Source: Leptolyngbya sp.
GTDB lineage: Bacteria; Cyanobacteriota; Cyanobacteriia; Leptolyngbyales; Leptolyngbyaceae
Assembly: GCA_003249025.1 (NCBI GenBank)
Contig: QBMH01000027.1
Location: 1 to 34,061 of the forward strand
DNA: 34,061 nt
Direction: 5' to 3'
Under the pieces are notes generated by a model that saw only the letters and a program-made list of their open reading frames with translations, was not told the DNA's origin and ran no database searches. Made by a program: the position numbers and the translations under genes. Of the stretch, positions 2,225 through 29,456 are shown in pieces; the stretch's first letter is position 1; every line of letters begins with the position of its first letter.

Positions 2225-3016
2225 TTAGCCAAATCGTCCGCTTACATAGTCTTGAGTTTTCTGGTCAGCCGGTGTATTGAACAGCAAGTTGGTTTCGTTG
2301 AACTCCACCATTTCGCCGAGATACATGAAGGCAGTGTAATCTGAAACCCGTGCTGCCTGCTGCATACTATGGGTCACAATCAAAATCGTGACTTGCTGCT
2401 TCAGGTCGTTGATCAGTTCTTCAATGCTGGCAGTGGCGATCGGGTCGAGGGCAGAGGTAGGCTCGTCGAATAGCACAATGTTGGGATCGGTTGCGATCGC
2501 CCGTGCAATACACAATCGCTGCTGTTGACCACCCGACAGATTGTAGGCAGGCTCTTTCAACCGATCTTTTGCCTCATTCCACAACGCCGCACCCTGCAAT
2601 GCCTTTTCCACTTTTTCATCGATCAGGCTTTTCTGGGTCATGCCTTGCACTCTCAAACCATAAGCCACATTTTCATAAATCGACTTAGGAAAGGGGTTAG
2701 GGCGCTGAAACACCATGCTGACGCGCATTCGGACTTCGATCGGGTCGATTTGCCTCTCTAAGATATTCACCCCATCCAGCAAGATTTCCCCGTCGTAGCG
2801 ATTGCCGGGATACAAATCGTGCATTCGATTGAAACACCGCAACAGGGTCGTTTTTCCACAACCCGAAGGACCGATCAACGCCGTCACGTTCCGATCCCAA
2901 ACGATCATGCTGACATCTTTGAGCGCCTTCGATGACCCGTAGTAAAAATCGAGATTTTTTACCTCCGCCTTCCGCTCCATCGCAGACCCCTTGAGTACAC
3001 GAATATCCTCTACCAT
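2225..3016 (-). CDS. pstB: Phosphate ABC transporter ATP-binding protein PstB
   Basis: PstB is the cytoplasmic ATPase that powers phosphate import by the PstSCAB transporter. The protein (263 aa) has Walker [10 protein letters not shown], the ABC signature [14 protein letters not shown], Walker [14 protein letters not shown] and the H-loop [14 protein letters not shown], all typical of PstB. The ends [18 protein letters not shown] are the usual PstB C-terminus. The open frame extends upstream into pstA, but those 43 residues are out-of-frame pstA sequence. I chose the ATG at 3016 because it has a Shine-Dalgarno AGGGAG about six bases upstream and overlaps the pstA stop as ATGGTAG, a translational-coupling arrangement. 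A second ATG at 2980 is possible. It is the last pst gene; phoU is not in the window. Confidence 0.96.
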
Positions 3017-3951
3017 TTGACTCCCTTCCGAAGACGATAACGTAAGTAAATTGCAAAAGCATTCAGCGATAGAGTCATTAAAATCAGAACGACACCAGCA
3101 GCAGCGGCATTCACTTGAAACTCTGGCTGAGGACGAGACACCCAATCAAACATTTGAATGGGCATCACCGTAAAGGGAGCCATCAGCCATTCAAATGAAA
3201 TAAACGGAAATTGAGATTTGACCGGAGAGGGCGGTAAAAACGCGATGAAGGTCAGCGCTCCAATCGTAATCAGGGGAGCCGTTTCACCGATCGCCCGCGA
3301 CAAGCCAATAATAATCCCAGTAAGAATACTACCGGATGAATAGGGCAAAATGTGATCCCAAATCATTTGCCATCGACTGGCACCCAAGGCGTAGGCAGCC
3401 TCTCTCAAACTACTAGGAATCGCCCGCAAAGCCTCTCGTGTCGTGACGATCACGATCGGCAAGATCAGCAACGCCAGCGTTAAGCCAGCCGTCAAAACAC
3501 TCTCCCCTAAGTTCAACATCGTACTAAAAAGACCCAACGCCAGCAGCCCGTACACAATAGACGGAACGCCTGCTAGATTCGTGACGTTGATTTCGATCAA
3601 GGCAGCTAACCAGTTCTTGGGTGCATATTCTTCTAAATACACGCCAGCCGCAACGCCTAAAGGAACCGCAACAAACATCGTGGTTAACATGACCAGCAGG
3701 GAGCCAACCCAAGCGGATAAGATGCCTGCTTCGTTAAAATCGCTGCTCGGAAACGACGTGAAAAACTTCCAGTTGAGCCGGGGTAGCCCCTGAATAAAGA
3801 GTTGAGCAACCAAGGCTATCAAGATCAAAGTTGCTATTGAAATGACCAGCAATCCCAGCACCCCGAATAGCTTGCTGATCAGTTGACGGCGGGAGACCGA
3901 TGCCCGAATCTGCTGTAAATCATTGCTTTGAGAAAAGTCTGCCTGTGCCAT
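3010..3951 (-). CDS. pstA: Phosphate ABC transporter permease PstA
   Basis: PstA is one of the two inner-membrane permease subunits that form the phosphate channel. The 313-aa protein has about six hydrophobic segments. The cytoplasmic EAA coupling loop reads [18 protein letters not shown], followed by the PstA signature [15 protein letters not shown]. The length matches the family. Its ATG at 3951 lies one base beyond the pstC stop (3953-3955), and its TAG at 3010-3012 overlaps the pstB start, so pstC, pstA and pstB are translated as a coupled block. Confidence 0.96.
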
Positions 3952-3952
3952 G

Positions 3953-4936
3953 TTAGTAGGTCTCGCGGAAGCGTTTCGTCAAGAAGTAACCAATGATGTT
4001 GAAAACTAAAGTGACTAACACCAGCACTAGCCCCGCCGCAAAAATAGTTTGGTACTCTAAAGTGCCGTGGGGCAAGTCACCTAAGCTGACTTGCACGATG
4101 TAGGCGGTAATCGTGGCGGCTGATTCGAGTGGATTAAACGTGAAAGTGGGCTGTAAGCCAGCCGCGATCGCCACAATCATTGTTTCACCCACCGCCCGCG
4201 ATACGCCCAAAATAAATGCCGCAATCACCCCAGAAGCCGCTGCTGGCAACACTACTTTTAGCGCAGTTTGCAAGCGAGTTGCCCCCGTTGCATAGGAGCC
4301 TTCCTTGAGATTCAACGGCACCGATCGCATGGCATCCTCGCTAATCGAGCTAATCAGCGGCGTAATCATCAACCCCATGACTAGCCCTGCTCCCAGCATA
4401 TTAAAGCCGGCCAATTCAGCCGGAAAAATGCTCGGAAAAATATTGGATAAAGGAGTGCCGACAAATTGGTATAGCCATTGCAAAGCCGGAATCACGCTCA
4501 ACAACGCAAAATATCCATAGACCACTGTGGGAATCCCCGCCAGCAGTTCCAAAATCGGCTTGACCACTTCTCGAACTCTGGGAGCCGCAAACTCACTTAA
4601 ATAAATCGCTGAAATCAGCCCCATCGGTAGCGCAACTACCAAGGCAACGGCAGTCGTCGTGAGCGTTCCTGAGACGAGCGGCAAAATTCCATAGCCCGGT
4701 GGATCAAACAAGGGCGACCAGTCTTTCCCCGTTAAAAACTCCACCAGCGAAACTTGCTGGAAGAACAAAACAGATTCACTAATCAAAATATACATAATGG
4801 CGATCGTCGTCGCCACACAGGAAAAAGCTGCTAAGAATAAAACAAATTCAATCAAACGCTCCTTCAATTCACGGGCTTTCTTTTTTTGGGTGAATTGAAG
4901 ATCCTGAGCAGAAGGTTTTGAGGGCTGAACGGTCAT
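3953..4936 (-). CDS. pstC: Phosphate ABC transporter permease PstC
   Basis: PstC pairs with PstA to form the membrane channel of the Pst transporter. The 327-aa protein has a charged cytoplasmic N-terminus rich in Lys and Arg, then about six membrane segments. The EAA loop reads YATGATRLQTALKVVLP and is followed by the PstC signature SRAVGETMIVAIAAG. Family signature LAGIPTVVYGYFAL is also present. The ATG is at 4936. It is separated from pstS by 116 bases that contain a terminator-like hairpin, unlike the nearly zero spacing to pstA, which suggests that permease and ATPase are made at lower levels than the binding protein. Confidence 0.96.
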   Translation of the reverse strand: MTVQPSKPSAQDLQFTQKKKARELKERLIEFVLFLAAFSCVATTIAIMYILISESVLFFQQVSLVEFLTGKDWSPLFDPPGYGILPLVSGTLTTTAVALVVALPMGLISAIYLSEFAAPRVREVVKPILELLAGIPTVVYGYFALLSVIPALQWLYQFVGTPLSNIFPSIFPAELAGFNMLGAGLVMGLMITPLISSISEDAMRSVPLNLKEGSYATGATRLQTALKVVLPAAASGVIAAFILGVSRAVGETMIVAIAAGLQPTFTFNPLESAATITAYIVQVSLGDLPHGTLEYQTIFAAGLVLVLVTLVFNIIGYFLTKRFRETY

Positions 4937-5012
4937 GATTGTAGTGTGTCAAAAAAGTGGAAAGTCAGCATATTTCTTGCTGACTTTAGTAGAGAGATCG
5001 CGGGACTCAGCC

Positions 5013-5036
5013 AAAAAGGGCACAACCAGTGTGCCC
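5013..5036 (-). terminator. Intra-operon terminator/attenuator between pstS and pstC
   Basis: On the minus strand the sequence reads GGGCACA-CTGGT-TGTGCCC followed directly by five T residues: a perfect 7-bp GC-rich stem with a 5-nt loop. It lies just after the pstS stop (5053) and before pstC. This is a good intrinsic terminator for pstS mRNA. Partial read-through would supply the permease and ATPase at lower levels. Confidence 0.75.
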
Positions 5037-5052
5037 CTTCGCTAAACGCCAA

Positions 5053-6060
5053 TTAATCTTGCAATTCGCGGCTGAGTAGTTCATCGATCTTAAGACCGAT
5101 CGCTTCTTTACCACCAAAGATACTCCCCGTCTTACCCGCTTTAAACCGTGCCGCCGCCGCTGTGTAAGCTCGTGGAGGCAGACCGATATAGCCGACGCTA
5201 TCGGCAATTTTGCCGCCATTCTTCAGGTAGTACTCAACGAACTTTTTCACTTCAGGCTTTTTCGCAGAATCCGCTTTGACGTAGATAAACAGTGGGCGAG
5301 AAAGGGGCGTATAAGTGCCATTTTCAACTGATTTCTCACCCGGCATTACCCCGCCGATTTTAACGGCTCTAAGGCGCTGCTGATTTGCTTTGAAGTAGGC
5401 ATATCCGAAATAGCCCAAGCCGCCTTTATCGCGAGAAACCCCTTGAACCAAAACGTTGTCATTTTCACTCGCAGTGAAATCCTTACGGCTTGCCTTTGCC
5501 TTGCCGTTGATCGCTTCAGTGAAGTAATCAAAGGTGCCGGAATCTGCACCCGGACCAAACAATTTCAGAGGTTGGTTCGGAAAGCTAGCGCGAACTTCTT
5601 TCCAGTTTTTAACCGCGCTACCCGGTTCCCAAATTTTCTTTAGCTCAGCCGTGGTTAAGTTGCTTGCCCAAGTATTGCTGGGATTGACCACAACGGTTAG
5701 GGCATCAAATGCGATTGGCAATTCGATGTATTTGACACCTTTTGCCTTACAAGCCGCTATTTCTTTTGCCAGGATGGGGCGGGATGCATTGGAAATATCT
5801 GTGTCTCCTGCACAAAATTTCTTAAAACCACCCCCAGTTCCAGAGACCCCCACGGTCACATTGGCACCGCCTGCTTTTCTAGAAGCTTCTGCAACCTTTT
5901 CAGTAATGGGGAAGACAGTGCTAGAGCCATCAACCTTGACGGCGGCACCCTGAGAGTTGACAGCGCTTACAGATAGACCCACCACTGCTGCCGTTACAGC
6001 CGCCGCGCTCACGATCGCCGTGAAGCGGTTAGACACAAGCTTCACTTTGTCAAACACCAT
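5053..6060 (-). CDS. pstS: Periplasmic phosphate-binding protein PstS
   Basis: PstS binds inorganic phosphate in the periplasm and hands it to PstCAB. The mature part begins VKVDGSSTVFPITEKVAE, the phosphate-loop signature, and includes GVSGTGGGFKKF and FGPGADSGTFDYFTEAI, which line the phosphate site in this family. A signal-type hydrophobic segment spans roughly residues 13-33; no lipobox cysteine is seen, so it is probably a soluble periplasmic protein. I chose the ATG at 6060 (335 aa) because it has GGAG about nine bases upstream and gives a standard signal peptide; the frame is open to 6132, but that extension runs into the promoter/Pho-box region. It is the first gene of the pst operon. 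Confidence 0.95.
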   Translation of the reverse strand: MVFDKVKLVSNRFTAIVSAAAVTAAVVGLSVSAVNSQGAAVKVDGSSTVFPITEKVAEASRKAGGANVTVGVSGTGGGFKKFCAGDTDISNASRPILAKEIAACKAKGVKYIELPIAFDALTVVVNPSNTWASNLTTAELKKIWEPGSAVKNWKEVRASFPNQPLKLFGPGADSGTFDYFTEAINGKAKASRKDFTASENDNVLVQGVSRDKGGLGYFGYAYFKANQQRLRAVKIGGVMPGEKSVENGTYTPLSRPLFIYVKADSAKKPEVKKFVEYYLKNGGKIADSVGYIGLPPRAYTAAAARFKAGKTGSIFGGKEAIGLKIDELLSRELQD

Positions 6061-12582: not shown

Positions 12583-13401
12583 TTAATACTGAATAATCCG
12601 CCCTGATGTAAAGGCGCGAGTGACTCCATTGAGCGATCGCACTAATAACCTGCCCTGATCGTCAAACCCCATGGCTTGCCCTGAAATCAATTCTCCATTC
12701 AGATCAATAGTCACGGAGCGATCGCGCAATCCATCGCGTTGATGCAGTTCGGGAAATAGCGGCACAATCCCAGAAAATTGAGTTGAGTCACATTTTTGTA
12801 CAATAATATCTCGCACCTGCATTAGATAGTGCCGCGATCGCTCTAGTAAAGCCAATTCTTCTGGTACTACATTAGAGATTTCATGGAGGCTAATCGCGTT
12901 GCCGACCTGATCTGGCGCTAACCCCGCTTGCACAAAATCCACACAGCGATTAATTCCAATGCCCACGATAACCCGTGTTTGTCCAGAGCGACTTCCAGAA
13001 GCTTCACACAAAATTCCTGCCGCTTTACGTCCTGCAATCAACACATCATTTGACCACTTCAAGCGCAATTTTCCGCGTTGGTCGGCGAGCAAATCCTCAA
13101 TAGCATGAATCACCGCTAACCCGATGACCAAACTCAAGCCTGATAGCTGGGCAATGGGAAAATCGAGAATAAAACTTACGGTTAATACACCCGTTGGAGA
13201 ATGCCAAGTGCGCCCATGCTGTCCGCGTCCTGCGGTTTGATGGCGCGTAAACACAACGGCACCATGGGGCAAGCGATCGGCGTGCGCTGTTGCCCATGTG
13301 TTTGTGCTAGAGCAACTATCCACCCAATGCAGCCAGTCAGGTAGATTCCTTGGATCGGGATCGCCAGAAGTGGGAAAAAGAATTAAAGGTCGGCTGTACA
13401 C
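12583..13401 (-). CDS. birA: Biotin--[acetyl-CoA-carboxylase] ligase (BirA), single-domain type
   Basis: BirA activates biotin with ATP and attaches it to the lysine of biotin carboxyl-carrier domains. The 272-aa protein has STNTWA (~31-36), the biotinyl-AMP loop GRGQHGRTW (58-66), KWSNDVLIAGRKAAGIL (115-131) and VIVGIGIN. There is no N-terminal helix-turn-helix, so this is a group I enzyme without repressor function. The start is a GTG at 13401; the sequence just upstream gives no better in-frame start. It faces away from the guanidine carboxylase operon, whose product carries a biotinyl domain, across a 357-bp intergenic region; the juxtaposition is functionally sensible, though BirA also serves acetyl-CoA carboxylase. 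Confidence 0.93.
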   Translation of the reverse strand: MYSRPLILFPTSGDPDPRNLPDWLHWVDSCSSTNTWATAHADRLPHGAVVFTRHQTAGRGQHGRTWHSPTGVLTVSFILDFPIAQLSGLSLVIGLAVIHAIEDLLADQRGKLRLKWSNDVLIAGRKAAGILCEASGSRSGQTRVIVGIGINRCVDFVQAGLAPDQVGNAISLHEISNVVPEELALLERSRHYLMQVRDIIVQKCDSTQFSGIVPLFPELHQRDGLRDRSVTIDLNGELISGQAMGFDDQGRLLVRSLNGVTRAFTSGRIIQY

Positions 13402-13475: not shown

Positions 13476-13528
13476 CAGCCAAGTTTTATCTGACAGACAT
13501 TTGAATAGAAATTGCACAGGAATTTGCT

Positions 13529-13648
13529 TCTAGGGTTCCGATTTAGCGGTTTTCAGCTAGATGACTGGTCCAAGAGAAGCAGCCCACTTGAGATCCTCAA
13601 ATGCAAAATCTTAAGTGAGTCACACGGCGGGAAAAAAGCCCGGGAGAA
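13529..13648 (+). ncRNA. Guanidine-I (ykkC) riboswitch aptamer
   Basis: The conserved elements of the ykkC/guanidine-I aptamer appear in the expected order: CTAGGGTTCCG at 13530-13540, CTGGTCCAAGAGA at 13565-13577, ACACGGCGGGA at 13622-13632 and AAAAAGCCCGGGAGA at 13633-13647. The family's known role is to sense free guanidinium and switch ON downstream genes. It sits in the leader of two DUF1989 genes and a urea/guanidine-carboxylase-type gene, the classic genomic context. The promoter lies at 13446-13475 and a competing hairpin follows (13635-13688). Confidence 0.93.
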
Positions 13649-13688
13649 CCATACAGGGTTAAGTCACTGTTGGAATCTCCTGGGCTTT
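13635..13688 (+). terminator. Riboswitch expression platform: terminator-like hairpin competing with the aptamer
   Basis: AAAGCCCGGGAGA (13635-13647), the conserved 3' part of the aptamer, can pair over 13 bp with TCTCCTGGGCTTT (13676-13688), with one G-U wobble and a 28-nt loop. This structure and the ligand-bound aptamer cannot form together, so guanidine binding should prevent it. The T tract after it is short (TTTGATATTT), so termination may be partial. The AGGAGG of the first gene lies 60 bases downstream and is not inside the stem. Confidence 0.8.
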
Positions 13689-13758
13689 GATATTTAAGTT
13701 AGTACTAAAACTTCTGGAGATTCTCAACTGAATTGTTCACCGTCATTAGGAGGCTTTT

Positions 13759-14508
13759 ATGGTGCAAGCATCTGTTTCGCTAGATTCTGATCTATCCAAT
13801 CCAGCCGCGATCGCCCCAGACCTGATTCTATTGAATGAAACCCTGCCGGGTAGTGCCTATTGGCATGGCGTAATCAAGCGAGGCAATACCTTGCGTGTGA
13901 CTGATCTGGCAGGCTCTCAGGGTGTTTCCTTGATTTGCTACAACGCAGATAATGCGATCGAGCGGCTAAATGTTGCGGATACTGCCAAAATTCAGTTTAA
14001 TGCTGCTCTTAAAAAAGGCATGGTAATTTACTCCGATATGGGAAGAATTTTGTTTTCAATTACAGAAGATACCTCTGGCTGTCACGACTTATTTGGAGGA
14101 TGTAGTCATGCTGTCAGTAACGCGGCAAAGTATGGAGATGGCGAGTTTTGGATAAACTCCCGTGATAACTTCCGCAGAGCAGTGACGCGATATGGTTTGA
14201 GCAAAAAAGATATTATGCCCAACATCAATTTGTTTACACGGGTCGCGATCGCGTCAGACGGCAAAATGAGTTTTGTCGAGGGGTGTGAGCAGCCTGGAAG
14301 TTTTATCGATCTTCGTGCTGAAATGAACGTGCTGGTGGTTTTATCGAACTGCCCCCATGTAATGCATCCCAGCAAGATCTATGAGCCAAAACCCATTCAA
14401 GTAAACGTTTGGAACTCTCCATCGATCGCTGGAGATGATTTATGTCGCTCTGCCAACCCCGAAGCCATTCGTGGCTTTATCAACACCGATGCTTTGTTTG
14501 CTCAATAG
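13759..14508 (+). CDS. DUF1989 urea carboxylase-associated protein, probable carboxyguanidine deiminase subunit (first)
   Basis: The 249-aa protein is a urea-amidolyase-associated protein of the DUF1989 family. In guanidine-degrading bacteria, two paralogous subunits (CgdA and CgdB) form the carboxyguanidine deiminase that converts carboxyguanidine to allophanate. Probable metal/catalytic residues are in EDTSGCHDLFGGCSH (Cys108, His109, Asp110, Cys115), and the family signature RYGLSKKDIMPNINLF and EQPGSFIDLRAEMNVLVVLSNC are present. It starts at ATG 13759 with a strong AGGAGG at 13748-13753, five bases away, in contrast to its neighbours. It is the first gene after the riboswitch. By length it fits the longer UAAP type (urea_degr_2-like); which of CgdA/CgdB it is cannot be decided by eye. 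Confidence 0.9.
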   Translation: MVQASVSLDSDLSNPAAIAPDLILLNETLPGSAYWHGVIKRGNTLRVTDLAGSQGVSLICYNADNAIERLNVADTAKIQFNAALKKGMVIYSDMGRILFSITEDTSGCHDLFGGCSHAVSNAAKYGDGEFWINSRDNFRRAVTRYGLSKKDIMPNINLFTRVAIASDGKMSFVEGCEQPGSFIDLRAEMNVLVVLSNCPHVMHPSKIYEPKPIQVNVWNSPSIAGDDLCRSANPEAIRGFINTDALFAQ

Positions 14509-14539
14509 TGTACTAGCCGCATTTTGTTAGGACTGAATC

Positions 14540-15181
14540 ATGACGACGACTATTGAACCGATTCTCGACCCCAAGACTGTTATATATGACGAGGTGGTTT
14601 CTGCTAGACATCCGTGGTCGCGGGTGATCCAGAAAGGACAGATTCTTCGGATTGAAGATTTGGGTGGCAACCAAGCCGTTGATTTTTTGGTTTACAATGC
14701 CGATGATCCATCTGAGCGCTACAGTGCCCAAGATACGACTGTTGCCCAAGGCAATCTTTATTTGAATACAGGTAGCAAATTGATATCAAATGATGGGCGA
14801 TTGATGATGACGATCTTGAAAGACACTTGCGGAAGGCACGACACATCTGGCGGTGCTTGTAGCTGCGAGAGTAACTCGGTGCGCTTTGGGCTGGACAAAA
14901 AATATCAACATGCCTGTGTCGAAAATTTTCTTTCGGCTCTAGCACCCTATGGGTTAGGTAAACGCGATCTGGTCAGCAATATCAACTTTTTCATGAATGT
15001 TCCTGTTTCAGAAGATGGCACCTTAGAAATTGTTGATGGTATTTCTGCGCCGGGTAGCGTTATCGATTTGCAGGCAGAAATGAATGCGATCGTGGCTATT
15101 TCCAACTGTCCGCAAATCAATAATCCCTGTAATGCTTACAATCCCACGCCGATTCGATTGATTATTTGGGATACGGTGTAA
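14540..15181 (+). CDS. DUF1989 urea carboxylase-associated protein, probable carboxyguanidine deiminase subunit (second)
   Basis: A 213-aa paralogue of the preceding protein and its probable partner in a heteromeric carboxyguanidine deiminase. The core motif is KDTCGRHDTSGGACSCESN (Cys97, His100, Asp101, Cys107, Cys109), cysteine-richer than the upstream protein. YGLGKRDLVSNINFFMNVPV and APGSVIDLQAEMNAIVAISNCPQ align well to its paralogue. ATG 14540 is 31 bases after the previous stop with a modest AGGA upstream. The two proteins share the same fold throughout, so they likely arose by duplication. Confidence 0.9.
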   Translation: MTTTIEPILDPKTVIYDEVVSARHPWSRVIQKGQILRIEDLGGNQAVDFLVYNADDPSERYSAQDTTVAQGNLYLNTGSKLISNDGRLMMTILKDTCGRHDTSGGACSCESNSVRFGLDKKYQHACVENFLSALAPYGLGKRDLVSNINFFMNVPVSEDGTLEIVDGISAPGSVIDLQAEMNAIVAISNCPQINNPCNAYNPTPIRLIIWDTV

Positions 15182-15258
15182 GGAAAAAGACTAGAGAGTG
15201 GAGAAAGGATAATCCTTGCTCCCTGTTTGGTTTTTTCAGCATTTACTGAGAAAGCGTT

Positions 15259-15278
15259 CATGTTTAACCATGTTTAAC
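15259..15278 (+). repeat. Tandem 10-bp duplication over the carboxylase start codon
   Basis: CATGTTTAAC occurs twice head to tail (15259-15268 and 15269-15278). The second copy carries the ATG of the carboxylase; the first carries an ATG in another frame that reads MFNHV and stops at TAA 15275-15277, overlapping the real start. Confidence 0.8.
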
Positions 15279-18200
15279 AAAGTTTTGATTGCCAATCGGG
15301 GTGAAATCGCTTGTCGGGTGATTCGGACGCTCGATCGCCTGGGAATTGCGAGTGTTGCAGTTTACTCAGAAGCGGATGCTCATACTCAACATGTTTCAAT
15401 GGCAACAGAGGCAGTCTGTATTGGCGCGGCTCCGGTGGCAGAAAGCTATCTCAAGGGCGATCGCATCTTAGAAGTGGCACAACAAACCGGGGCGCAGGCA
15501 ATTCATCCCGGCTATGGTTTTTTAAGCGAGAACATCGACTTTGCAGAAGCCTGTGAAGCCGCAGGAATTGCTTTTATTGGTCCTACGCCACAACACATTC
15601 GCCAGTTTGGATTAAAGCATACTGCTCGTGAATTGGCGGAACAAAATCAGGTGCCGTTAGTGCCGGGAACAGGTCTGTTGGAGAGTTTAGAGCAGGCACA
15701 ACAGTTAGCAGCAGAAATTAGCTATCCAGTGATGCTGAAAAGTACCGCAGGTGGCGGCGGGATTGGAATGCAGGTTTGCTTGAATGAAACAGACCTGGTA
15801 GATGGGTTTGAGAAAGTGAAACGCTTAAGCCAGACAAACTTTAAGCAGAGTGGTGTATTTCTAGAAAAATATATTCAAACAGCACGACACATTGAAGTGC
15901 AAATTTTTGGGAATGGCAATGGCACTGTGATTGCACTGGGAGAACGAGACTGCTCAACTCAACGACGCAATCAAAAAGTGATTGAAGAAACTCCTGCACC
16001 AGGCATCAGTGATACGTTACGGCAGCAACTTTATGACTGTGCCGTGCGATTGGGGCAGGCAGCGAACTATCGCTCCGCAGGCACAGTCGAATTTGTGTTT
16101 GATGTAACTACGCAACAGTTCTACTTTTTGGAGGTGAACACGCGCCTACAGGTAGAACATGGAGTGACTGAAATGGTCAGCGGGATTGACCTAGTGGAGT
16201 GGATGGTACGACTGGCAGCAGGTGATTCTACATTTCTGAATCACTATCGATATCAACCTCAAGGGCATTCAATTCAGGTACGAATTTATGCCGAAGATGC
16301 GAACAAGAATTTTCAGCCGAGTTCTGGTTTATTGAGTGCTGTTCGGTTTCCAGACAATGTTCGCTGCGATCGCTGGATTAAAACGGGAACCGAGGTTACA
16401 CCATTTTATGATCCGTTGCTGGCAAAGGTGATTGTGCATGGGGAAGATAGAGAAGCCGCGATCGCCCAACTCCAAACTGCTTTACAAGAGTCCGCGATCG
16501 CGGGTATTGAAACGAATCTAGAGTATCTGCATCAGGTTATCGCCAGTCCAGCATTTCTTCAGGAAACTATTAGCACTCGCTATCTCAACACCTTTGAATA
16601 TAAACCCCACACTATCGATGTTCTCGATTCTGGCACATATACCACCATTCAAGATTACCCCGGAAGGATTGGCTATTGGGATATTGGAGTGCCGCCATCA
16701 GGACCGATGGATCATCTAGCGTTTCGCTTAGCCAACCGGATCATAGGCAATCCTGAATCGGCAGCGGGGCTGGAATTTACAGTTACAGGTTCAACCTTGC
16801 GCTTCAACTGTGACACCATCATTTGCCTGACGGGTGCCGCCATGAAAGCCACACTCAACGGTCAACCTGTACCCTATTGGACATCGATTCCTGTTAGTGC
16901 AGGCAGCACCTTCAAACTGAAAGCCATTCAAGGACATGGATATCGCACGTATCTCGCCATTCAAAATGGATTTGATGTCCCTGAATATCTAGGCAGCAAA
17001 GCCACATTCACGTTAGGGAAATTTGGCGGACATGCAGGACGAACGTTACGAACTGGAGATGTCCTACATCTATATCAAGTGGTTAATCAAGCACAAGATA
17101 TTAATAATCAATGCCCTACTGAATTAATTCCGCAATACACTAATGAATGGGAAATCGGCGTTCTCTACGGTCCTCATGGCGCACCCGATTTTTTCACCAA
17201 CAATGATATTGAGATGTTCTTCTCAACCCGCTGGACAATCCATCACAACTCAGCCCGGACTGGCATTCGCCTGATGGGTCCTAAACCTGAATGGGCGCGA
17301 TCGGATGGCGGTGAAGCCGGGTTACATCCCTCCAATATTCATGACAATGCCTATGCGATCGGCACCATTGATTTCACAGGCGACATGCCGATTATCCTGG
17401 CTTATGACGGTCCTAGTCTGGGCGGATTCGTCTGTCCTGCAACGATCGCCCACGCTGAACTTTGGAAAATTGGACAACTCAAACCGGGTGACACCGTTCA
17501 GTTCTATCATCTCACCCTTGAGGAAGCTCTTGAGCGGGAGTTAGCGCAAGATCATCAGATTGAAACGTTGTCACCCCTGCACTCCTGCACTCCTGCACTC
17601 CTGCACTCCTGCACTCCTGCACCTATCCTCCACCAGATCCCTCAATCATCGACTCAAATCGAGGTCACTTATCGACAAGCAGGCGACAAGTTCTTATTGA
17701 TTGAATACGGTTCACTCGTGCTGGATCTCAATTTACGCTTTCGGGTTTATACCTTGATGGAGTGGTTGAGCGCAAATCGCTTGCTAGGAATCATTGATCT
17801 CACACCGGGAATTCGATCGCTACAAATCCATTACGACAGTCGAGTTTTGCCCGTTCAAGTATTGCTCGATGCCTTAATTGCAGCAGAGCCAGAACTTCCA
17901 GAGATTGACGCGCTGGAGGTGCCCACGCGAATTGTGCACTTGCCGCTCTCATGGGATGACGAATCGACCCAATTAGCCATTCAAAAGTACATGCAATCGG
18001 TGCGATCGGATGCGCCCTGGTGTCCGAGTAATATCGAGTTCATTCGGCGGATTAACGGACTCGATACGATTGAGCAAGTGCGAGAAATCGTCTTTAATGC
18101 TAGCTATTTAGTGATGGGGTTGGGCGATGTCTACCTCGGCGCACCCGTTGCGACACCACTCGATCCTCGCCATCGGCTGGTCACAACAAAATATAATCCG

Positions 18201-18875
18201 GCTCGTACCTGGACACCCGAAAATGCAGTGGGAATTGGGGGTGCCTACATGTGCATTTATGGCATGGAAGGTCCAGGAGGCTATCAATTTGTCGGGCGCA
18301 CGGTGCCTGTCTGGAATCGCTACAAGCAAACTGAGGATTTTAAGCAACCCTGGCTGCTGCGCTTTTTTGATCAGATTCGTTTCTTTCCAGTTTCACCAGA
18401 AGAACTTTTGCATTATCGAGAAGCGGTGATTCAGGGCAAAGTGAAACTGGAGATTGAGGAAGAAACCTTTAGCTTAAGGCAGTATCACGAGTTCCTGAAT
18501 GCGGATGCAGAAGAGATTGCTGCCTTTAGAGTGAAACAACGGACTGCATTTGCGGCTGAACGCGATCGCTGGGCAACGGCTGGAGAATTTACCCGCCAAG
18601 ATGTAGAAGTATCCGAGGAGCCAGCAAGCCCTAAGATCACGCTTCCTGAGGATGTTGAAGCGGTTGTGGCTCATGTATCTGCAAATGTGTGGCAGGTTTT
18701 GGTACAACCCGGCGATCGCGTAGCTGAGGGCGATCGCCTGGTCATCCTCGAAGCGATGAAAATGGAAATCGCAGTGCTTGCCGATGTTGCGGGCACAATT
18801 ACAGACGTATTTTGCCAAGCAGGGCAAACAGTGACGGCTGGTCAATTTTTGGCAGCGATTCGGGTGGAGGGGTAG
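15270..18875 (+). CDS. Biotin-dependent urea/guanidine carboxylase
   Basis: The 1201-aa multidomain enzyme would carboxylate guanidine (or urea) using ATP, bicarbonate and biotin. Domains in order: biotin carboxylase (~1-446; [18 protein letters not shown] loop [24 protein letters not shown]); AHS2/KipA-type carboxyltransferase (~448-745; [19 protein letters not shown]); AHS1/KipI-type (~793-1010; [28 protein letters not shown]); biotinyl domain at the C-terminus with biotin-Lys1164 in EAMKMEIA. The riboswitch and two DUF1989 partners favour guanidine over urea, since fused urea amidolyase is not present; the substrate is inference. The frame is open back to TTG 15216, but [11 protein letters not shown] from ATG 15270 is the family's N-terminus. 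The AHS2-AHS1 linker carries an octamer tandem repeat (17576-17622). Confidence 0.93.
17576..17622 (+). repeat. In-gene octanucleotide tandem repeat (CCTGCACT)n
   Basis: CCTGCACT repeats five times exactly (17576-17615), plus a partial sixth copy (CCTGCAC, 17616-17622), inside the linker between the AHS2 and AHS1 domains of the carboxylase. Because 8 is not divisible by 3, the encoded peptide repeats only every 24 bases (LHSCTPAL / LHSCTPAP). Gain or loss of one unit would shift the frame. Confidence 0.9.
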
Positions 18876-18896: not shown

Positions 18897-19649
18897 ATGA
18901 GTAAACCAAAACGGTTGTTGATATTGGGTGGAACGGGTGATGCAACAGAGCTAGCAATTAAAGCGACTGATATACCGGAAGTGGAGGTCACTACTTCTTT
19001 AGCAGGTCGAACTCGCCAACCTATTACATCCTTTGGAAACACTAGAATTGGGGGGTTTGGAGGGGTTGCAGGACTAATAGATTATTTGCGAGAACAGCAG
19101 ATTGATCTGCTGATTGATGCTACTCATCCATTTGCGGCTCAAATTTCGTTAAACGCCGCAGCCGCAGCCACAACAATGCATATTCCCCACTTGATGTTGA
19201 TTCGTCCAGTGTGGGAACCTAGAGCGGGAGATGAGTGGATTGAGGTAGAAAGCAATACAACGGCAGCAAAAGTCCTGCCAGGATTAGCCCAGCGGATTTT
19301 TCTGACAATCGGTCGGCAAGAACTCGCGGCTTTTGCTCACCTAAAAATCTGGTTTCTGATGCGGATGATTGATCCCCCTTTGCCAGATACTATAGTGCCA
19401 CCGGGCAAGATTTTACTTGATCGCGGACCTTTTTCCCTGGGAAATGAGCGATCGCTGTTACAGCAGTATGAGATTGGGGCGATCGTCAGCAAAAACAGCG
19501 GCGGGGATGCCACTTACGCCAAAATTATCGCTGCACGAGAACGAAGGATTCCAGTGGTGATGGTGCAACGCCCAGCCGTTCCAGCGGGAGAAAAAGTTGC
19601 AGATGTAGAAAGTGCGATCGCTTGGCTTAGAGACAGGGTATCTAAATAA
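18897..19649 (+). CDS. cobK: Precorrin-6A/cobalt-precorrin-6A reductase (CobK/CbiJ)
   Basis: This 250-aa enzyme reduces a double bond of (cobalt-)precorrin-6A with NADPH in cobalamin biosynthesis. The N-terminus RLLILGGTGDATELA is the CobK nucleotide-binding signature. LIDATHPFAAQIS and the later LTIGRQELAAF, VPPGKILLDRGPF, GAIVSKNSGGDATYAKI and RRIPVVMVQRP follow the family's order, and the length is normal. ATG 18897 lies 21 bases after the carboxylase stop, so it may be on the riboswitch transcript, although no guanidine-cobalamin link is known to me. Confidence 0.93.
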   Translation: MSKPKRLLILGGTGDATELAIKATDIPEVEVTTSLAGRTRQPITSFGNTRIGGFGGVAGLIDYLREQQIDLLIDATHPFAAQISLNAAAAATTMHIPHLMLIRPVWEPRAGDEWIEVESNTTAAKVLPGLAQRIFLTIGRQELAAFAHLKIWFLMRMIDPPLPDTIVPPGKILLDRGPFSLGNERSLLQQYEIGAIVSKNSGGDATYAKIIAARERRIPVVMVQRPAVPAGEKVADVESAIAWLRDRVSK

Positions 19650-28643: not shown

Positions 28644-29456
28644 ATGATGCACGGCTTCATTCCTCCTGAACGGTTCTTTGCCTATTTATCCTGGACTGAT
28701 ATTGAGGCGATGCCCCACAAAGATCGGGTGGTAATCATTCAGCCGATTGGGGCGATCGAGCAACATGGACCGCATTTGCCGCTGATAGTGGATAGCGCGA
28801 TCGCCCAAGCTGTATTGGGTAAAGCCTTGGAGAAACTTGATCCAGCCATTCCAGCTTACGCCTTGCCCTCGTTGTACTACGGTAAATCAAACGAACACTG
28901 GCATTTCCCCGGCACTATCACTTTGACCGCGCAAACCTTAATTACACTGCTAATGGAAGTGGGCGAAAGCATTTACCGAGCTGGCTTTCGGAAGTTTATC
29001 TTGCTGAATGCCCACGGGGGACAACCGCAAATTATGGAGATTGTGGCGCGAGATTTGCACCAAGTCCATGATGATTTTGAGGTGTTTCCATTTTTTGTCT
29101 GGAGAGCGCCCAATATTACCAAGCAGCTATTGACCGAAAAAGAGGCAGAGTTGGGCATTCATGCCGGAGATGCCGAAACTAGCTTACTGCTGTCGATTTT
29201 GCCCGATCATGTCAAGATGGATCGCGCCCAGGCAGAATATCCCCATGGGCTACCGCAGGATAGCTTACTCACTTTAGAACGCAATCTGCCGATTCCCTGG
29301 ATGACAAGAGATATCAGCCGTAGTGGTGTAATTGGTGATCCGACCCCTGCCACTCCTGAGAAAGGCGATCGCATCCTCGAATCGCTTGCAGATGGCTGGG
29401 CACAAGTGGTTGCTGATGTCCATCGGTTTCAGCAGCCACAAATTTGGCGAGAGTAG
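28644..29456 (+). CDS. Creatininase family protein (creatinine amidohydrolase-like)
   Basis: A 270-aa metal-dependent amidohydrolase of the creatininase superfamily (which also contains FAPy deformylase and mycofactocin-type members). Metal ligands are visible: Glu39 and His41 in GAIEQHGPHLP, Asp50 in LIVDSAIA, a His in LLNAHGGQP and a Glu in HAGDAETSLLL. GKSNEHWHFPGTITL is the usual substrate-side segment. The start ATG 28644 is followed at once by a second ATG at 28647; neither has a clear Shine-Dalgarno. The substrate is unknown; related cyanobacterial genes are not tied to creatinine use. It is convergent with the TIGR02652 gene, 32 bases apart. Confidence 0.88.
   Translation: MMHGFIPPERFFAYLSWTDIEAMPHKDRVVIIQPIGAIEQHGPHLPLIVDSAIAQAVLGKALEKLDPAIPAYALPSLYYGKSNEHWHFPGTITLTAQTLITLLMEVGESIYRAGFRKFILLNAHGGQPQIMEIVARDLHQVHDDFEVFPFFVWRAPNITKQLLTEKEAELGIHAGDAETSLLLSILPDHVKMDRAQAEYPHGLPQDSLLTLERNLPIPWMTRDISRSGVIGDPTPATPEKGDRILESLADGWAQVVADVHRFQQPQIWRE

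Follow-up and report, generated by a model that had tools for sequence, protein, structure and literature searches.

A guanidine-I riboswitch operon for predicted guanidine carboxylation in a Leptolyngbya genome without canonical allophanate hydrolase

A riboswitch, a DUF1989 pair and a biotin-dependent carboxylase

The window analysed here, a 34,061-nucleotide stretch of Leptolyngbya sp. (contig QBMH01000027.1, assembly GCA_003249025.1), carries on its forward strand a guanidine-I (ykkC) riboswitch followed by genes for two DUF1989 proteins and a biotin-dependent carboxylase. The genome to which it belongs measures 5.46 Mb in 407 contigs and is 99.3% complete. The aptamer lies at 13519..13648 (+), where the Rfam covariance model RF00442 scores 76.7 bits (gathering score 63; E 3.6e-12) and is matched along its full length, all 107 model positions (1-107) being covered. 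A first-pass annotation had named this leader a guanidine-I aptamer, and the covariance search agrees. The expression platform (13635..13695, +) was recognised by fold energy and z-score as an intrinsic-terminator hairpin (AAAGCCCGGGAGA / UCUCCUGGGCUUU, then UUUGAUAUUU). The hairpin proper spans 13635-13688, and the minimum free energy of 13630-13700 is -30.1 kcal/mol (z -5.0). Its 5' arm is formed by the last (3') conserved block of the aptamer, and of 81 non-redundant related aptamers 58 are followed by a stem of 9 bp or more with a T-rich tail, where shuffled tails give 0.2 expected. This overlap, together with the retention of the hairpin behind related aptamers, indicates that the leader has the layout of a transcription-termination switch with a predicted response to its ligand. 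By analogy with characterised homologues, the leader RNA would form the terminator when guanidine is missing, and guanidine bound to the aptamer would occupy the 5' arm of the hairpin and let transcription run on into the three genes.

The aptamer, the DUF1989 pair and the carboxylase follow one another in the same direction, the intergenic gaps being 31 bp and about 82-88 bp. UAAP1 (13759..14508, +) exceeds the TIGR03425 cut-off (291.5 bits against 206) and UAAP2 (14540..15181, +) that of TIGR03424 (335.1 bits against 285); both match PF09347. By hidden Markov model (HMM) assignment the two adjacent proteins are predicted subunits of a carboxyguanidine deiminase (CgdA/CgdB). The carboxylase (15264..18875, +) reaches 1920.7 bits with TIGR02712 (cut-off 1304), covers positions 1-1200 of the model's 1201, and contains biotin carboxylase, carboxyltransferase and biotin carrier domains (PF00289, PF02786, PF02785, PF02626, PF02682, PF00364). 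The in-frame TTG listed as its start (15216) probably lies too far upstream, because homology begins only at the ATGs 15264/15270. The closest solved structures are K. lactis urea carboxylase and urea amidolyase, and the nearest named carboxylases, at 82% identity, are those of Phormidium tenue FACHB-886 and Scytolyngbya HA4215-MV1, in keeping with a filamentous, Leptolyngbya-like source. The gene content first read from this stretch, two DUF1989 paralogues and a biotin-dependent carboxylase behind the aptamer, is confirmed by these three matches.

Positions 1330 and 1584 of the K. lactis enzyme have been used to tell guanidine from urea carboxylases (PMC11410670). Asp719 of the window enzyme (codon 17370..17372, +; 1219-residue numbering) aligns opposite K. 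lactis Asn1330 and is the guanidine-type substrate residue; the urea-type Asn was not found at this position of the window carboxylase. Asp971 (codon 18126..18128, +), opposite K. lactis Asp1584, is conserved across carboxylases of this family. Related sequences carry the guanidine-type Asp at position 1330 in 110 of 110 cases and Asp at 1584 in 113 of 113, counts that include repeated genomes (some loci overlap). Because Asp rather than Asn occupies the discriminating position, the enzyme is assigned as a guanidine carboxylase of predicted substrate preference, as had been proposed at first, and is paired with the predicted carboxyguanidine deiminase.

It is very improbable that the enzyme is instead the urea carboxylase of a urea amidolyase pathway, as described for cyanobacterial uc/ah genes. 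The family is still named urea carboxylase in NCBIfam, and cyanobacterial uc/ah genes have been treated as urea-degrading (PMC6737895, PMC11844795), but the Asp replacement is shared by all the related sequences counted above, a guanidine-I riboswitch lies directly upstream of the operon, the genome has a separate urease, and no part in urea carboxylation is known for the DUF1989 pair. The published uc/ah genes (PMC6737895; Microcoleus, PMC11844795) share the carboxylase family and UAAP1/2 with the window; they were presented as urea catabolism, whereas the residues and riboswitches seen here indicate guanidine. Since all carboxylases checked are of the guanidine type and most genomes that have one lack the allophanate hydrolase AtzF, a re-test with guanidine is warranted for the cyanobacterial genes published as "urea carboxylase/allophanate hydrolase" (PMC6737895), and perhaps also for the Microcoleus ones (PMC11844795).

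Microcoleus loci annotated with a urea carboxylase (L145, L146, L151, L156) have the guanidine-type Asp in every carboxylase sequence checked, and a guanidine-I-like motif lies upstream in L145/L146. These loci, which are not from the published strain, bear on the urea reading of the Microcoleus vaginatus uc/ah genes (PMC11844795).

A second guanidine-I regulon and the guanidinase route

A covariance search of the genome detected one more guanidine-I riboswitch, located on a different contig (G000:C369:15035, 75 bits). It heads genes for an ABC ATPase, a substrate-binding protein, a metallo-beta-lactamase (MBL)-fold protein, GlnT (type III glutamine synthetase, 602.6 bits), a permease and an isochorismatase-fold hydrolase. 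No importer adjoins the carboxylase operon within the window. The earlier remark that no transporter is adjacent is therefore right for the window and does not carry over to the genome, where ATPase, substrate-binding protein and permease stand behind this second riboswitch and would form the ABC importer for guanidine uptake.

GlnT recurs together with an ABC importer in guanidine operons of cyanobacteria and Methylophilales (L010:7036-13270, the C369 locus; L164-L168, L170, L171, L173, L175, L179, L215, L218). In cyanobacteria, MBL-fold and isochorismatase-fold proteins accompany the two.

The genome contains no GdmH guanidinase by signature, because its sole arginase-family protein has GT-PEPGG in place of GW-PEPGG; this protein is 29% identical to a relative's GdmH and has no riboswitch. 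Five relatives of the same family (G105, G149, G163, G190, G300) have riboswitch-controlled GdmH and no carboxylase. Carboxylase and guanidinase thus replace each other inside one cyanobacterial family, and the contrast of routes to which the first-pass annotation pointed is real. The GdmH operon, known from Synechocystis PCC 6803 and found in these five relatives, shares guanidine-I control with the window genome. In G300 the genes for GdmH and HypA/HypB-like proteins are followed by those for ABC, substrate-binding, MBL-fold, GlnT, permease and isochorismatase proteins, a transporter/GlnT set in common with the second operon of the window genome. The GdmH route differs in its direct Ni-dependent hydrolysis and in the HypA/HypB-like genes, which are absent from that second operon. 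The loci compared with the window genome for this contrast were L056-L059 and L053.

We consider it very likely that the operon is a guanidine-induced unit leading through carboxylation and UAAP1/UAAP2 deimination to allophanate, with its importer in the second regulon. The biotin-loaded carboxylase would convert guanidine, ATP and bicarbonate to carboxyguanidine, and UAAP1/UAAP2 would convert carboxyguanidine to allophanate and ammonia, both reactions, like ligand binding and antitermination, being predicted from characterised homologues.

The fate of allophanate

No allophanate hydrolase adjoins the operon in the window, and no protein of the genome reaches the TIGR02713 cut-off for AtzF (best 225.9 against 511 bits). 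The best score belongs to a GatA-like amidase, and a top TIGR02713 match on contig C257 looks like GatA. Urease is present in the genome. The first-pass observation that the pathway stops before allophanate hydrolase holds beside the operon and genome-wide; the label "complete" does not suit the pathway, since neither window nor genome holds a canonical allophanate hydrolase, even with urease present.

The carboxylase scores over the cut-off in 52 of 390 genomes of the class, or 59 when seven draft fragments are added, which amounts to about one in seven sampled cyanobacterial genomes. AtzF occurs in 18 of these 59, either as one fused gene or as distinct amidase and C-domain open reading frames (ORFs), and often beside the carboxylase; the remaining 41 have none. 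A draft assembly in 407 contigs could have lost AtzF in its gaps, an explanation we find hardly credible at 99.3% completeness. Near-finished genomes in 4-10 contigs (G115, G197, G204, G118, G340, G088) also lack AtzF, so the absence is no assembly artefact. Split AtzF genes, with separate amidase and C-domain ORFs, lie beside the carboxylase in Scytolyngbya, Myxacorys, Amazonocrinis, Rhizonema and Methylophilales (L141, L144, L159, L160, L162, L164, L165, L167, L168).

The closest known system is the guanidine carboxylase pathway of Pseudomonas syringae, Raoultella and Klebsiella (carboxylase, CgdA/CgdB, AtzF; PMC12186494). It shares with the window genome the guanidine-I riboswitch, the Asp-type carboxylase, the DUF1989 pair and a guanidine-controlled ABC importer. 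In contrast, the window genome has no AtzF, keeps the importer in a separate regulon, and has a stand-alone AH_C protein and urease instead. The operon extends the known pathway, of which the AtzF-free layout of the genome is a variant with a proposed last step. The useful part of the result is at this genome level, a widespread guanidine-type carboxylase mostly without AtzF.

The stand-alone AH_C protein (G000:C97:140-550, 136 residues) matches PF21986 with 132.5 bits, over the cut-off, and has no amidase domain. Its closest solved protein is 5c5z (E 7.6e-42), followed by the AtzF C-terminal domains 4gyr (E 2e-15) and 4ist. Family PF21986 is common to these domains and stand-alone 5c5z, and what sets the Leptolyngbya protein apart from AtzF is the missing amidase attachment. 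On C97 the gene forms a cluster with an AtzG-like ORF and AtzE that is conserved across the family. A continuation of the C369 operon into this cluster (AH_C-AtzG-AtzE; both ends truncated) was not supported: in G294, of the same genus, the 6.8 kb past AH_C holds none of the genes of the C369 operon (L123), and in G300 AH_C does not lie behind the operon's last gene (L116). Two divergent AH_C-like paralogues occur elsewhere in the genome (L011:4384-4869 and L012:971-1423, C-domain matches on C344 and C314). Judged by eye, the C344 paralogue precedes OHCU-decarboxylase-like and allantoate-amidohydrolase-like genes, with the look of ureide catabolism.

With orthologues counted at E < 1e-40, AH_C is present in 38 carboxylase genomes out of the 41 that lack AtzF, and the 18 AtzF-bearing ones have none. 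Three of the 41 depart from this pattern: G017, with an AtzF-type C-domain match on another contig, and two genomes that are 69-72% complete. At genus level the counts are 16/16 against 0/9; when only within-family contrasts are used, which occur in f1, f23 and f34, the exact p is about 0.0045, a value that describes the pattern and tests no prior hypothesis, the comparison groups having been defined after the distribution was seen. AH_C also repeatedly neighbours enzymes expected to yield allophanate: the gene follows the carboxylase by 12-18 bp in G062, G327 and G061 (two families), lies 16 bp behind a BiuH-like hydrolase in G089, and is near a BiuH over the cut-off in G340. BiuH produces allophanate (PMC6219798). 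Urease occurs in 33 of 34 AH_C-type genomes at least 90% complete and is absent from 9 of 17 AtzF-type genomes, as would be expected if AH_C genomes pass through urea.

These patterns point to a possible, though far from assured, ending in which allophanate is not hydrolysed by AtzF; the AH_C protein of C97 would N-decarboxylate it to urea, and urease would complete the breakdown. More tentatively, the same two steps may operate in most carboxylase-bearing cyanobacteria, giving a third layout of carboxylase, deiminase, decarboxylase and urease; with similar reserve, we suggest that this layout stands between the AtzF and guanidinase routes. Our literature search found no paper on allophanate decarboxylation as an enzyme step. 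The stand-alone AH_C family thereby gains a specific and cheaply testable candidate reaction.

Several observations weigh against AH_C as an allophanate decarboxylase of guanidine breakdown. Its gene does not lie near the operon in the window genome and has no riboswitch, and it is not specific to guanidine, as 118 of the 331 cyanobacterial genomes that lack the carboxylase also have it. Eight such carboxylase-less genomes have both AH_C and an AtzF-type amidase, so the mutual exclusion is limited to carboxylase genomes. The nine urease-less AtzF genomes come from two families only, urease is found in most cyanobacteria anyway (PMC6737895), and the genomes compared are phylogenetically related. 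An AtzE-family amidase, present in 26 of 38 AH_C-type genomes, could supply the amidase half.

This last point leads to the alternative of a split allophanate-hydrolysing enzyme composed of the products of the C97 cluster, namely AH_C, AtzG and the amidase of the AtzE family. The family-wide conservation of the cluster and the existence of split AtzF beside the carboxylase in the five groups named above favour such an enzyme. We nevertheless judge it unlikely: AtzE is missing from 12 of 38 AH_C-type genomes, including ones with AH_C in the guanidine operon, which argues against a partner needed everywhere and led us to reject AtzE as the universal allophanate amidase. Furthermore, G015 has AtzE and AtzF with no AH_C, C97-type clusters occur in carboxylase-less genomes too, and the AtzG-like ORF shows a weak match (30 bits, cut-off 70) to HpxX, which belongs to oxalurate catabolism, so that AtzEG may act on a different substrate. 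Rather doubtful, if somewhat less so, is the alternative that no enzyme acts after the deiminase, allophanate losing CO2 spontaneously, urease using the urea, and the AH_C pattern reflecting shared ancestry. Allophanate has been described as unstable, giving urea and CO2 (PMC6219798); with urease here and in nearly all genomes without AtzF, and AH_C widespread among cyanobacteria, spontaneous decay would account for the same facts save the operon placement of AH_C. That placement, with AH_C as the next gene after the carboxylase in three genomes from two families, speaks against it, as do the 18 of 18 AtzF genomes without AH_C and the contrasts within f1, f23 and f34. Enzymatic decarboxylation by AH_C is the ending we put forward, with the reserve expressed above.

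Genes adjoining the operon

Immediately upstream, on the opposite strand and outside the riboswitch transcript, lies the gene for the biotin-protein ligase BirA (12583..13401, -; TIGR00121, 137.8 bits), the single biotin ligase detected in the genome. A link to the operon is sensible because the carboxylase is biotin-dependent, and BirA is expected to biotinylate it. Of 45 carboxylase genomes, 15 have their only birA no more than about 10 kb away from guanidine genes, in five families and several arrangements; position alone would predict about 0.16 genomes if they were independent, which they are not.

Downstream, a gene for cobalt-precorrin-6A reductase (CbiJ; 18897-19649, same strand) begins 21 bp past the carboxylase and may be co-transcribed; CbiJ is downstream of the carboxylase in locus L080 too. 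By eye, the window also holds a pst-like (phosphate-type) ABC transporter gene set at 2225-6060 and a creatininase-family-like ORF at 28644-29456.

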